From positions 62,001 to 126,000 of the IMG/VR virus record IMGVR_UViG_3300031884_000002: a stretch of DNA of 64,000 nt; one strand, written 5' to 3'. The stretch is from a virus. Made by a program: the position numbers and the translations under genes. A model generated the notes under the pieces. It saw only the letters and a list, made by a program, of their open reading frames with translations, made no database searches and had not been told where the DNA came from. Of this stretch, positions 23 through 18,521 are shown in pieces (positions within the stretch are counted from its first letter, which is position 1; each line of letters begins with the position of its first letter).

Positions 23-226
23 TCAATCATTATCGCCGCTATAATAGGCTTTCTGTTTTTTGATTATGTTAATTGGATACACACATTTCGGACAAGTTAT
101 TAAAGGTGTGTTTGACTCTACATCCCATGCTAAAATAGTCCATTTACTATAATGAATATCTTTAGCATCCATAAAACTCATTGCTTTATTACAGATATCA
201 CATTTAAGATGCCAATGATTAGCCAT
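23..226 (-). CDS. Small zinc-ribbon protein
   Basis: A 67-aa protein with two CxxC pairs (Cys9/Cys12 and Cys45/Cys48) that should bind one zinc ion as a ribbon. No family is recognised. Its ATG overlaps the stop of the upstream minus-strand reading frame by 8 nt, so it is probably translated by coupling. Small Cys4 proteins like this recur throughout the window. Confidence 0.7.
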   Translation of the reverse strand: MANHWHLKCDICNKAMSFMDAKDIHYSKWTILAWDVESNTPLITCPKCVYPINIIKKQKAYYSGDND

Positions 227-2295: not shown

Positions 2296-3744
2296 TTAGT
2301 TAGCATTAAAAATATGAGTAGTATAACCAGCACGATAGCCAGCAATATATAATACATGATTATCACTATCGGCGGCATCAACATCACCTTCAAGGTATCG
2401 AGCCGGATTATTATCAATCATATCATTGGCACCGGCTACAAATCCTTCAACAAAATGATTATTATTACTATTTGGAACTCGTTGTAACACCATCTGCTGA
2501 ATAATATAACTAACCACTTGAGCGAAAGTTAATTCTTTATTATTTTCTACTTTTTCGGCTTCTGAATCAGAAATATCAATCTGAAATATTTCTTCCATTG
2601 CCATAAGTAATTCAACGCCATCCAATGAGTCAAGTCCGCATGAATGAATCTTATCAGTTAATTTAATTTCAGGATTAACTCCTAAATCTCCATATAACTG
2701 TTCATGTGTCAAATCCCTAATTTGAGACCATATATTTTCAATAAACAATAAAGGTCTCTTTTCCACCTTGGAAATATGTGCTTCAACGGGAATTGGAGAT
2801 TCAATCGGAAAATTAGTTGTTAATGCATCAATTTCTTCATTGGCTTTCTTTTCAATTTCACAAATACATTCATTGTCTATATTGATAGGAGAAGCACACT
2901 TGCTACAATGACAATTTTCCATTACAGAACCACATCCATCACAATAATCATCTCCAACTGGAGTAGAAGGAACCGTAGTGTTTTCATTATTAAATACCAA
3001 TGGAAGATAATTCTCCAATTCTCCAATTACTTTATATTTACAAATACGATGTTTTTGAAACTCACAGTCCCTTGGAACTGTAACAAAATCTACGGGGTCA
3101 ATTTCAACCAGAATGACTCGTTTTCCATATTCTCTGGCATATTCCAAAGAACCGGCGTGAAGTCCGGGACCACATTCAGTTAAATAATTGTCACATACAG
3201 ATGAACGTTCAACTTCAATCGTGGAGCCAATAGTATTAAGAATACGTCCCTTTTCATCCACTTTACCTTGTAAAACTACAGTTTCGAGATTTCCAGTAAT
3301 AGACCAATAATCTTCATTAACCCCCTTATATGCAATTACAAATCCAGCATCCGTCAAAGTCAATCCCAAATGTTCCATAAATTTATAAGATTCTTCGATT
3401 GCCCTTTGCGATGGATTTTTACGAAGACGTTCAATATAATTGGCAATTGGTTGATAAGGAAATCCCGATTTAAGAAATGCCATAACCCGTTGAGCATCAA
3501 ATGTATTAATATGCCGACCATTATAAGTTACACCGGCAGTATTAACTGAAAGTTTTCCATTTGAATATTCCTCAACAACAGTTTTCATAGAAATCAATCG
3601 TTCAAGCAATTCCTTATTTCCAGCCTTGAATGCGTCTCGCAATTCATTCCATTTTGGATGGTCTGATTTTGCCGTTAGAATCTGTTTCCCATTATCAATA
3701 ATGAGAGTCAATGTTTCGTTAATTAAACTGGATGCGGTAATCAT
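2296..3744 (-). CDS. rIIB: rIIB-like protein fused to an acyl carrier protein domain
   Basis: A 482-aa protein. Residues 1-250 match the rIIB-like family: an N-terminal region with YNGRHINTFDAQRVMAFL and a core with GVNEDYW, ECGPGLHAGSLEYA and ILVEIDPVDFVTVP. T4 rIIB is about 312 aa, so this one is longer. A cysteine cluster (Cys268 to Cys295) follows. Residues about 335-420 form an acyl-carrier-protein domain with CGLDSLDGVELLMAMEEIF; Ser373 in LDSLD is in the 4'-phosphopantetheine attachment position. The last 55 residues look like a phage tail-end domain (FVEGFVAGAND). It neighbours rIIA and has its own promoter at 3766-3793. Confidence 0.85.
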   Translation of the reverse strand: MITASSLINETLTLIIDNGKQILTAKSDHPKWNELRDAFKAGNKELLERLISMKTVVEEYSNGKLSVNTAGVTYNGRHINTFDAQRVMAFLKSGFPYQPIANYIERLRKNPSQRAIEESYKFMEHLGLTLTDAGFVIAYKGVNEDYWSITGNLETVVLQGKVDEKGRILNTIGSTIEVERSSVCDNYLTECGPGLHAGSLEYAREYGKRVILVEIDPVDFVTVPRDCEFQKHRICKYKVIGELENYLPLVFNNENTTVPSTPVGDDYCDGCGSVMENCHCSKCASPINIDNECICEIEKKANEEIDALTTNFPIESPIPVEAHISKVEKRPLLFIENIWSQIRDLTHEQLYGDLGVNPEIKLTDKIHSCGLDSLDGVELLMAMEEIFQIDISDSEAEKVENNKELTFAQVVSYIIQQMVLQRVPNSNNNHFVEGFVAGANDMIDNNPARYLEGDVDAADSDNHVLYIAGYRAGYTTHIFNAN

Positions 3745-7270: not shown

Positions 7271-7459
7271 AGCCTTCCCGTAAAGGGTTTATTGTCAACT
7301 ATTTAAAAGGCTTTCCACGAGCGGCTATATCAGAAAAGATATAACCTAACTCATGCTAGGCATGTCGGATGCCTAAATATTTGTCAAAGAACAACTTACA
7401 TCTTGCGAGCGGTTATGCGTAACTATCTCATCACCACACCGCTCGCAAGAAAAATTAAA
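7271..7459 (-). ncRNA. Structured RNA between the Cas12-like gene and array 1 (tracrRNA/leader candidate)
   Basis: This intergenic stretch abuts the first repeat and is far more structured than its surroundings. Visible stems: 7402-7412 with 7439-7449 (11 bp, CTTGCGAGCGG), 7357-7363 with 7369-7375 (7 bp), 7323-7331 with 7338-7346 (8 of 9 bp), 7271-7276 with 7307-7312 (6 bp) enclosing a CCC/GGG hairpin. GAGCGG at 7407-7412 has a second near-complementary partner (minus-strand CCGCTC near 7319-7324), so two alternative folds are possible. Position and structure fit a tracrRNA, scoutRNA or omega-RNA-like scaffold, but no long anti-repeat is visible in it. A leader that only drives array transcription is the alternative. 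Confidence 0.7.
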
Positions 7460-14107: not shown

Positions 14108-14353
14108 TTATTCATACGGTCTATTATCTTTTAAATCTTCAGTTAAATAATCATATACTCTGTCTTTAAATACGGTGTCGCTCAATCCCCACTGTTCCGC
14201 TATGAACTTTATATCGATTGGAAGTGTATTATATATTTTATCCAATTGATTGTCAGTAGGTTCAGTATCATTGTTATGAGCGGTCAACGCATCAATAATA
14301 ACATCGTTGAATGCGTCTTGGTCTGATTCTGAATATTCTTTATATTTTTTCAT
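14108..14353 (-). CDS. Hypothetical acidic protein, 81 aa
   Basis: An 81-aa acidic, mostly helical protein (FNDVIIDALTAHNNDTEPTDNQ). Its ATG overlaps the CoaD-CoaE stop by ATGA, so it is co-translated with that enzyme. Function unknown. Confidence 0.6.
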   Translation of the reverse strand: MKKYKEYSESDQDAFNDVIIDALTAHNNDTEPTDNQLDKIYNTLPIDIKFIAEQWGLSDTVFKDRVYDYLTEDLKDNRPYE

Positions 14354-15537
14354 GATAATCCAATAGATTTAAAAAAGTTTTCCCTATGTAAAATGGAAAA
14401 TAATTCTAATTGTTTAGCATCTTTATTTTGTAAATCATAAATCGGTTGACCTTTTTCATTTTTAATTAAAACAATCTTACCATGTCCAGTATCTTCAATA
14501 GATTTCATTAAACTTCTAACTTTTTGATTATTATTGAATTGAGATTTTAGGCGTCTATTAACATCGGACCAGTTATTCTGATATCTTTCTAATAAACGCC
14601 GAATTAATTCATCGGTAGATGTATCTACAACAATCACATTATTATTACATAGATAATGCATATTACAATCTATAAGCAATGCTCCATTTAGAATAATAAG
14701 TCCTGTTTTACCAGCAATTTGCTTTCTAATTTCTCTAATCATTATAGGCTTATATAAATCTTGTATTTTTTTATTAAAAAAACAATCATTAAATATTGCT
14801 TCCTGTAAATCTAATTTTATAATTTTAAAATATTCAGTCTTATTTTTATCGGATAACATTTCCATCACGGTTTTACGCATATCCATTACTTCAATATTTT
14901 CCTTAAATGTATCGCCATATGTTAAATTATATGCAATTTTATCCATATCTATATGAGTAACTGGTAAATTAGAATACCCATCAATCAATAACTGAGTTAT
15001 ATAAGATTTACCACAACCAATGGTGCCGGTAACTCCGATAATATATTGTTGATTTATTTTAATTTCCAATAATTGCTTGGCCGATAAAGAAACATAATCC
15101 CTAACATCGCCATTGTATTTAATCAATTCTTTGGCGGCTGATGAACTAATTTTAGCATCAATCGGATTAGAAAATAAAACACAAGTATCAACTCCGTTTT
15201 CCTGTGCCACCGTTACTTCGTGTAACATTCGTTCATATTCCGTATCTTTAATATCCCGAATACCTTTAATAATAGTAACAATACCTTTGGAACGAGCATA
15301 ATCGCTAACTAATTGATTATCAGGGAGAACATCAACTTCAAACTCGGTTGATAATAAAGAAGGCAGAGCACTATAAATAAGTCCAATCCGTTCTTCAATA
15401 TTAAATGTATATTTTTTAGCAGGATTATTCGCCACTAAAACAACCACCTTGTCAAACATTTTTAGTGCTCGCTTAACAATGTTGGCGTGTCCCTCGTGAA
15501 AACAATCAAAACTTCCAGCGTAAATACAAGATTTCAT
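14350..15537 (-). CDS. coaDE: Bifunctional CoaD-CoaE: phosphopantetheine adenylyltransferase fused to dephospho-CoA kinase
   Basis: A 395-aa protein. Residues 1-155 are a CoaD-type nucleotidyltransferase: YAGSFDCFHEGHANI (HxGH class), VIIKGIRD-like IIKGIRDIKDTEYE and KISSSAAKEL. Residues about 163-395 are a CoaE-type P-loop kinase: GVTGTIGCGKSYIT and HIDMDKIAY. Together they would catalyse the last two steps of coenzyme A synthesis. The two enzymes are normally separate in bacteria; the fusion parallels eukaryotic COASY in order. It is notable beside an ACP-bearing rIIB. Confidence 0.85.
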   Translation of the reverse strand: MKSCIYAGSFDCFHEGHANIVKRALKMFDKVVVLVANNPAKKYTFNIEERIGLIYSALPSLLSTEFEVDVLPDNQLVSDYARSKGIVTIIKGIRDIKDTEYERMLHEVTVAQENGVDTCVLFSNPIDAKISSSAAKELIKYNGDVRDYVSLSAKQLLEIKINQQYIIGVTGTIGCGKSYITQLLIDGYSNLPVTHIDMDKIAYNLTYGDTFKENIEVMDMRKTVMEMLSDKNKTEYFKIIKLDLQEAIFNDCFFNKKIQDLYKPIMIREIRKQIAGKTGLIILNGALLIDCNMHYLCNNNVIVVDTSTDELIRRLLERYQNNWSDVNRRLKSQFNNNQKVRSLMKSIEDTGHGKIVLIKNEKGQPIYDLQNKDAKQLELFSILHRENFFKSIGLS

Positions 15538-16630: not shown

Positions 16631-17125
16631 TTATATCAAATTTGTCAATCTAAATTTTGTGGCTTCATCATAACAATAATTATGATCCCAATGACATGCA
16701 TTATTCTCATGAAGAACTAATAATTCACATTGAGATAACCCATATGATATTGATAATATCGTTCCATCAATATCATTCTGAGTAATGCAGATTACATCAT
16801 CATTCATAAGACATATTATTTCAACTCTATCCATTATACTATTAAATTTGACTTTAGAATAATCAAATTTATTATTGTGAATTCGATTTGCTCGTTTGAT
16901 AAATTCATCAACTGATAATTTAAGTTTATTATATCCACATCTGGGACAATTCGTTCCGGCTAAATGTGAATTCGGAGTCTGTTTAAATGTTCCGTGTAGA
17001 GGACATATTATAATTCCTTTTATAGATGATTTAATATAAATAAATTTTGAATAGTCATATTTATCATTATGAACTTTATTTGCTTTAATAACAAAGTTAG
17101 AAGTATTTGTTACTTTATTTTTCAT
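16631..17125 (-). CDS. DUF723-like protein, possibly a homing endonuclease remnant
   Basis: A 164-aa protein with two copies of the unit HxxKYDYSK...I.CPLHGTFKQTPN.HL.G.NCPRCG; the second copy (HNNKFDYSK) loses the pattern after VEIICLM. These treble-clef-type units are typical of DUF723 proteins found with phage homing endonucleases. The broken second unit suggests truncation or decay. It is preceded by a pseudoknot-forming RNA whose last stem ends 1 nt before the ATG. Confidence 0.6.
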   Translation of the reverse strand: MKNKVTNTSNFVIKANKVHNDKYDYSKFIYIKSSIKGIIICPLHGTFKQTPNSHLAGTNCPRCGYNKLKLSVDEFIKRANRIHNNKFDYSKVKFNSIMDRVEIICLMNDDVICITQNDIDGTILSISYGLSQCELLVLHENNACHWDHNYCYDEATKFRLTNLI

Positions 17126-17126
17126 A

Positions 17127-17216
17127 CTATCTGTGCCTTTAATTAAAAAACAAGCAAATGTATTCTATACCGTTTAGACTATTGTTGGCACAGATAGGGG
17201 TATGTAGCGAATACAT
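17127..17216 (-). ncRNA. Pseudoknot RNA element upstream of the DUF723-like gene
   Basis: Two perfect helices interleave: 17127-17137 with 17187-17197 (11 bp, CTATCTGTGCC/GGCACAGATAG) and 17158-17165 with 17209-17216 (8 bp, ATGTATTC/GAATACAT). A third, 5-bp pairing (17167-17171 with 17199-17203) extends the second helix. The crossing order makes an H-type pseudoknot. On the minus strand the final helix strand ends 1 nt before the ATG at 17125, so folding could control translation. It matches no riboswitch class I can recall. A mobile-element end is an alternative. Confidence 0.65.
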
Positions 17217-17229
17217 ATAATGAAATCAT

Positions 17230-17682
17230 TCAATTTATATCAAAAAAATCAAACTTTTCTCTCGGCACTTTATAAAAATATTCTCCATATTTCACAAATT
17301 TATTACTTGACTCTTTTAAATGTTCGTCTCCCATATATTTACTAACTATTTTACCTTTAATAATACCAATTCGAGAGTAGTTTTTTGATAATATCACATA
17401 ATCAGTTTTTCCATCTAATAGAAACTTTTTTTTGCGTTCGGCTATATTGACTAATTCGTAGTCAAACTCAACACTTTTCCATGCTAATCTATGTTCCACC
17501 TCTACACTATACTTTCCACATTTGGATATTAAATCCACGCCATACCGTGATTTATTATCTTCCAAAATAATACCTAATTTGTCTTTATAATATTCTTTAA
17601 CGACTTCTCGTGATTTTGGGTCATGGGCGGCATGTAATGCTTTACTGAACTTTTTTTGTTTTCCGAATGTAGTTTTTTCCAT
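17230..17682 (-). CDS. Possible PD-(D/E)XK-like nuclease, 150 aa
   Basis: A 150-aa protein with an order of residues reminiscent of PD-(D/E)XK enzymes: SRYGVDLISK then KYSVEVEHRLAW. The expected E-x-K is E-x-E-H, so activity is doubtful. The rest is basic with a beta-rich middle (TDYVILSKNYSRIGIIKGK). Low confidence in function, good confidence in the gene. Confidence 0.5.
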   Translation of the reverse strand: MEKTTFGKQKKFSKALHAAHDPKSREVVKEYYKDKLGIILEDNKSRYGVDLISKCGKYSVEVEHRLAWKSVEFDYELVNIAERKKKFLLDGKTDYVILSKNYSRIGIIKGKIVSKYMGDEHLKESSNKFVKYGEYFYKVPREKFDFFDIN

Positions 17683-18205: not shown

Positions 18206-18475
18206 TTAGGCTTTATTTAACTTTGCATTAGGATAACATTTTTGACACATAAATATTTTTTTCTGTTTGTTATCAACTCCGATATAACCTTTACCAAAAC
18301 ATTTCTTACAATTATTCTTGGGAGCATGAGGAACATTAACTTTAATATCCTTAGTTCCAATTACTAATGGTGGCATAATTTTACCGGCTGCTGTTGATTT
18401 TAATTCATAAACAGGCTTAGGTACATTTTGGTTAGGTTGGGCTGGTTTAGGTATGTATTCAATTGGTTCGCTCAT
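18206..18475 (-). CDS. Zinc-ribbon protein with proline-rich N-terminus
   Basis: Starting at MSEPIEYIPKPAQPNQ (ATG 18475; an ATG 9 nt upstream is also possible). The N-terminal half is proline-rich and the C-terminal half holds a DnaJ-like ribbon (CKKCFGKGYIG ... CQKCYP). Directly upstream is a 13-bp dyad. Confidence 0.6.
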   Translation of the reverse strand: MSEPIEYIPKPAQPNQNVPKPVYELKSTAAGKIMPPLVIGTKDIKVNVPHAPKNNCKKCFGKGYIGVDNKQKKIFMCQKCYPNAKLNKA

Positions 18476-18485
18476 ATAAATCAAA

Positions 18486-18521
18486 AATCGCTAATATACT
18501 TTATATTATATATTAGCGATT
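18486..18521 (-). promoter_or_regulatory. 13-bp inverted repeat in the 18.5-kb intergenic region
   Basis: AATCGCTAATATA (18486-18498) and its exact reverse complement (18509-18521) flank a 10-nt loop, just before the ATG at 18475/18484. On the minus strand the second arm runs into TTTTT, so it may be an intrinsic terminator or attenuator; with TTGTCA beside it, a repressor operator over a promoter is the other reading. Confidence 0.5.

Follow-up and report, generated by a model that had tools for sequence, protein, structure and literature searches.

A conserved pseudoknot-forming leader RNA that may control translation of homing-endonuclease-type genes in phages

Results

Crossing helices in a minus-strand leader

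A preliminary description of the 64-kb stretch of viral DNA analysed here (the window, by which we mean the whole stretch) reported perfect 8-bp and 11-bp helices that cross each other, with an extra 5-bp helix, in a 104-bp intergenic gap, which raises the question of whether the locus encodes a conserved RNA with a role in translation of the gene that follows. All three helices are present, on the minus strand, in the gap at 17126-17229 (104 nt), which is flanked by minus-strand ORFs at 17230-17682 and 16631-17125; since the gap sits between two minus-strand ORFs, the leader RNA is read on that strand. The 11-bp helix, for which five G/C pairs had been given, contains six. The helices (S1, C and B·B'), their strands and the downstream gene are as follows, L311 being one of the homologues described below:

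17209-17216 / 17158-17165, minus strand: helix S1, 8 bp, ATGTATTC/GAATACAT in DNA letters
17199-17203 / 17167-17171, minus strand: helix C, 5 bp, ATACC/GGTAT, nested in S1
17187-17197 / 17127-17137, minus strand: helix B·B', 11 bp, crossing S1, CTATCTGTGCC/GGCACAGATAG in DNA letters
17209-17216, minus strand: 5' arm of S1, AUGUAUUC, with its partner at 17158-17165
17204-17208, minus strand: internal loop GCUAC, 5 nt, facing a single A (AA in L311)
17199-17203, minus strand: 5' arm of C, AUACC
17187-17197, minus strand: strand B, the putative switching strand, CUAUCUGUGCC, perfect over 11 bp with B'
17183-17186, minus strand: loop AACA 3' of B, its AAC invariant in all four members
17179-17182, minus strand: D' (AUAG), a local alternative partner for the first 4 nt of B
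17167-17171, minus strand: 3' arm of C, GGUAU
17158-17165, minus strand: 3' arm of S1, GAAUACAU
17127-17137, minus strand: B', the strand at the ribosome-binding site (RBS), GGCACAGAUAG
16631-17125, minus strand: downstream ORF, 164 aa, whose N-terminal part (approximately residues 1-112) has repeats from a phage endonuclease family (phrog_681, phrog_559)

In the window leader, a single C separates the 5' arm of C from B, UCUAAAC lies between D' and the 3' arm of C, a single A stands between the 3' arms of C and S1, and a 20-nt linker with a UUAAA end leads from S1 to B'. The GG of a Shine-Dalgarno-like AAAGG falls inside B', which is followed by one T (U in the RNA) and then by the ATG (17125-17123); B' therefore stops 1 nt short of the start codon of ORF 16631-17125, in agreement with the earlier placement of the final strand at an ATG. 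The possible partners of B are B' at the RBS, the local D' and, in three homologues, an upstream strand, U.

All helix and fold energies given here exclude pseudoknot costs, and on this basis no helix overlapping an RBS in 85 window genes (mean -3.9, SD 2.8) is stronger than B·B' at -18.0 kcal/mol; the counterpart of B·B' in the homologue L256 has a value of -19.9. Of 400 dinucleotide shuffles of the whole 64-kb window, only 6 contained a comparable crossed pair at any position (arms pairing over 11 bp, five or more of them G/C, crossed by arms pairing over 8 bp or more, start-codon contact not being required), and to this extent the view that chance formation is unlikely was borne out, but S1 alone is weak, at p ~0.09 given B, so the window by itself is not proof of a pseudoknot. 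The nested minimum-energy fold of the window leader favours B with a small 5' hairpin (-24.9, z -2.7) and does not include S1. On the comparison of sequences set out below, S1 is validated by the homologues, whereas it is marginal from the window alone. The plus strand gives a stabler window fold (-33.7), yet the G·U pairs of the homologues and the start codon point to the minus strand, and the plus-strand reading was rejected.

At least four members in different phage contigs

An exact search of viral contigs with GGCACAGATAGNATG gave 115 matches, among which one contig (L098) also carried strand B together with a matching core. This 78-kb record holds the element at 124-222 (+) and, as a second inverted copy at the contig's other end (L129), at 77833-77931 (-), in opposite orientations, an arrangement explained either by inverted terminal repeats or by an error of assembly. 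Searching with a covariance model of the window and L098 copies brought out L256 as the third member; the 139-kb phage record in which it lies also contains the region most closely related by synteny to this part of the window. L311 was found by a viral pattern scan, among the matches listed. A second covariance model, built from L256 and L311 only, independently recovered L098 (E 2.4e-8), and in the window its best match is the leader (E 0.017), both E-values being rough because of the short calibration. There are thus at least four members, from different phage contigs, a lower bound given that most scans of the collections were exact-pattern scans; since L256 and L311 hardly differ in the core, the alignment amounts to about three independent sequences.

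No other copy was found in the same 354-kb phage, a search of the sequence preceding other related endonuclease-repeat genes did not reveal one, and none reached a convincing E-value in 39 other viral records with related endonuclease repeats. Annotated phage and plasmid DNA gave no convincing match, a partial pattern search of bacterial and archaeal genomes gave no copy, none of 31 looser bacterial or archaeal matches was scored by the covariance model, and 296 genomes of one phylum yielded no copy in a search run without a positive control. One locus that looked similar by eye (L228, an 11-bp pair) was discarded as a chance match, since it is at the 3' end of a gene and has no ATG. Rfam gave no match for the window at the gathering threshold and, at a permissive threshold, none for the window stretch or the homologue loci other than tRNAs at the latter, so that the element can still be called unassigned, as it was at the outset.

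Covariation supports the helices and the strand

The homologous S1 arms (UGACGGACAAUACUU/GAGUAUUGUUCGUCA in L098, AUAGGAAUACUACC/GGUAGUAUUCCUAU in L256 and L311) form 14-15 bp and differ wholly in sequence from those of the window with complementarity kept: each member's own arms pair fully (8/8, 15/15 and 14/14), and arms swapped between members do not pair. Helix C is AUACC/GGUAU in the window, GUACC/GGUAU in L098 and AACC/GGUU in L256 and L311, and its covariation includes a swap of U-A to A-U. In L256 and L311, B is CUGUCAGUGCC and B' is GGCACUGACAG, so that two pairs of B·B' are changed and both are compensated. Where B begins with CUGU in place of CUAU, D' reads ACAG or GCAG in place of AUAG, and at the third position of B the strands B, D' and U change in concert. 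Read in the gene-sense strand, the helices together contain five G·U pairs and no A·C pairs (counted by hand in a hand alignment fitted to the structure, the automatic alignment of the members having put S1 one column off), and this points to a sense-strand RNA. The conserved unpaired positions are the internal loop (consensus NCYAC in all four members by hand alignment), the A opposite, the AAC after B and the AAAGG before the start codon. The preliminary description had proposed compensatory changes in homologues as a check, and these are what S1, C and B display in L098, L256 and L311; a conserved pseudoknot-forming RNA at the RBS is supported accordingly by the covarying homologues.

Alternative partners of the B strand

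The preliminary description gave no strand and could not show D' or the upstream U, which the homologues add. Upstream of S1, L098, L256 and L311 carry the U strands GGCACAGAUA, GGCACUGACA and GGCAUUGACA, identical to B' except for one C-to-U change in L311, and U pairs with B over 10 bp, the pairing in L311 including one G·U. As alternatives for B, D' is available in 4/4 members and U in 3/4, the window being the member from which U is absent. In silico folds contain mutually exclusive pairings, U-B and D-B on the one hand and B-B' on the other. In folds of prefixes of the leader, U-B appears once B has been made and is supplanted by S1-C-D after the 3' arm of S1 has been made, in each case in 3/3 U-bearing members. 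These modelled alternatives suggest that a switch is built into the RNA. In L098, a hairpin, CCCAATCTCTTTAGAGGTTGGG, lies at 73-94, just 5' of the U strand.

One leader before unrelated endonuclease genes

All four leaders run up to the start codon of a gene of the homing-endonuclease type and none precedes a metabolic gene. The genes belong to three families between which comparison found no resemblance: the gene downstream of L311 encodes an endonuclease-repeat protein that is 42% identical over 112 residues to the window ORF, that of L098 a NUMOD3/DUF7487 protein and that of L256 an HNH endonuclease. From a point some 50 nt before U up to the ATG, the leaders of L256 and L311 share 87% identity, with a conserved TATAAT promoter-like stretch upstream of U; the similarity stops at the ATG and the genes beyond are unrelated, so that the leader behaves like a module combined with different endonucleases. 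The element has the look of an on/off leader, not described so far, that moves together with DNA-cutting genes.

Leaders of other related endonuclease genes are often without unusual structure, and two have structures of their own. In L040, hairpin arms TATTGTACTAT and ATAGTACAATA at ~2950-2995 (+) stand directly before the ATG of an endonuclease-repeat gene (leader z -5.4), in what looks like a plain RBS-hiding hairpin of the T4 mobE type. In L016, a different hairpin at 2858-2942 (+) has a loop, GUAAGGCC, that can pair with GGCCUUAC ~50 nt downstream, giving a pseudoknot-like leader of unrelated sequence before an endonuclease-repeat gene of a 345-kb phage.

Discussion

A proposed translational switch

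With the fold and its covariation established, along with its placement at the start codon and its association with three families of endonuclease gene, we propose that the element is a conserved gene-sense leader that hides and releases the RBS and so controls translation of phage homing-endonuclease-type genes, a reading based on sequence comparison to which we give a probability of about 0.7. The S1 and C stems, with the 5-nt internal loop between them, would present the B strand. In the predicted OFF state, B would pair with the 11-nt strand just ahead of the start codon (B'), and the resulting pseudoknot would block the Shine-Dalgarno region. In intact copies, U, a 10-nt sequence matching B', would compete with B' for B, and D' would compete for the first four nucleotides of B; in the ON state, U would hold B and leave the RBS free. 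In the order of transcription, U-B would form early, S1-C-D would follow, and the loop would then be captured by either U or B'. Control of translation, the assignment of the ON and OFF states and OFF as the endpoint of folding are what we infer from these models. Candidate triggers are a folding timer, a ligand or a protein, the conserved internal loop being a candidate sensor. A broader proposal, that the element represents a portable class of switch in which one strand has three partners and the loop core senses a metabolite, the stage of infection or folding time and so determines whether the endonuclease is made, is one we hold only tentatively and consider rather doubtful.

Relation to known leader RNAs

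In pseudoknotted translational riboswitches, such as those for preQ1 and the SAM-II type, a strand from the loop base-pairs at the RBS. The leader described here shares this pairing and, like them, has unpaired nucleotides that are conserved and strands that offer alternative pairings; its conserved core (NCYAC and AAC) is combined with covarying S1, C and B at the RBS, as is riboswitch-like; unlike those RNAs, it has endonuclease genes downstream, not genes of biosynthesis or transport, and no Rfam match. The pseudoknot in the T4 gene 32 leader is autoregulatory and is bound by the protein it encodes. Our element resembles it as a pseudoknot in a phage 5' leader with (here predicted) translational control, but autogenous binding by all the encoded proteins is unlikely, unlike in gene 32, since these proteins are mutually unrelated. 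HEARO, or IscB-type omega RNA, is likewise a folded RNA that immediately precedes a nuclease gene; unlike it, the present leader is much shorter, is without an Rfam match and is followed by proteins that match other endonuclease families.

Since all four copies precede homing-endonuclease-type genes, control of endonuclease translation of the T4 type is favoured first, ahead of a ligand-binding riboswitch. In T-even and related phages, the RBSs of I-TevI, I-TevII, I-TevIII, segB and Aeh1 mobE are hidden in hairpins, and late promoters within these structures make translatable messages in T4-type phages (PMC2988022). Our leader is likewise structured, stands directly before the start codon of a phage homing endonuclease and has its RBS paired; it differs in being a pseudoknot with a separate stem, an internal loop and alternative partner strands, in preceding three unrelated endonuclease families in different phages as one fold, and in that a conserved internal promoter was not found. 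The best reading is that of an RBS-sequestering translational switch that resembles the hairpins of T4 endonuclease genes, except that it forms a pseudoknot, and that has no counterpart in Rfam. A full-text search of the papers available found none linking free-standing homing endonucleases with pseudoknots, which does not prove that the wider literature has none. Selfish homing endonucleases need to be expressed without harm to the phage, and the T4 solution is a set of gene-specific hairpins; a single fold before unrelated endonucleases would, if our reading is true, be a portable control module and would mean that regulators are exchanged as well as nucleases.

Alternative explanations

The arrangement documented for I-TevI, segB and mobE (PMC2988022) could also apply here in its simplest form, B-B' passively silencing read-through transcripts and a late promoter between B and B' giving a message with a free RBS. 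A weak promoter-like match in the window (GTGCCA-18-TAGAAT) does lie inside the element, and GGTATAG is common to the window and L098. Promoter-like matches in the region number only 4, against 5.2 expected from shuffles, and GGTATAG becomes GGGTTAG or GGTTAAG in L256 and L311; because these changes are in step with helix C, the motif is not conserved as a promoter, and an internal promoter was dropped as the cause of its conservation. The TATAAT conserved in L256 and L311 sits upstream of U, outside the structure, and no conserved internal promoter-like sequence was found across the members, although phage-specific promoters could escape detection. A passive hairpin also leaves S1, C, D' and U without explanation, and we regard it as unlikely. 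Still less probable is a triplicated DNA operator, in which GGCACNGANA at U, B (inverted) and B' would be bound by a repressor, perhaps the endonuclease, and RNA folding would be incidental. The three copies of this 10-nt motif near the start codon do change together between phages, and T4 endonuclease autorepression is documented, I-TevI binding an operator over its own promoter (PMC2988022). The S1 and C arms, in contrast, are complementary and unrelated to the motif, the five G·U and zero A·C pairs fall on the gene-sense strand, D' varies along with B, and one leader stands before unrelated proteins. Chance inverted repeats in AT-rich DNA would account for the marginal S1 of the window, yet a crossed pair was rare even across whole-window shuffles, and four members with a common layout, position and covariation refute this explanation, which we consider negligible.

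The copy in the window itself calls for a separate judgement. Residues 109-158 of its ORF match a small phage protein that stands alone, at 60 aa, in a relative (L173) whose upstream neighbour is 69% identical to that of the window; as residues 1-112 match the L311 protein, the window gene is an endonuclease fragment fused in frame to this small protein. With U missing, S1 of only 8 bp and D marginal (0.1 kcal/mol), the window leader is, judging from its sequence, probably partly decayed and mainly in the OFF, repressive, state. It is quite possible, though at less than even odds, that this one copy has gone further and is a functionless relic of an endonuclease cassette, which would be compatible with a switch in the intact homologues. 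The fused gene, the lost U, the shortened S1 and the marginal D all favour such a relic; against it, the 11 bp of B-B' remain perfect and an open reading frame still begins at the sequestered ATG, so that translation of the fused small protein can still be influenced.

Other features of the window

A perfect 13-bp hairpin at 18486-18521 (-), just upstream of ORF 18206-18484 (-), ranks second in stability among the RBS-overlapping helices of the window; it may act as a terminator or may also hide an RBS. A perfect 13-bp inverted repeat, TCTTGCGAGCGGT, GC-rich within an AT-rich genome, lies at 7401-7450, and ORF 14350-15537 (-) encodes a 395-aa protein in which cytidylyltransferase-like and dephospho-CoA kinase (CoaE) domains are joined.
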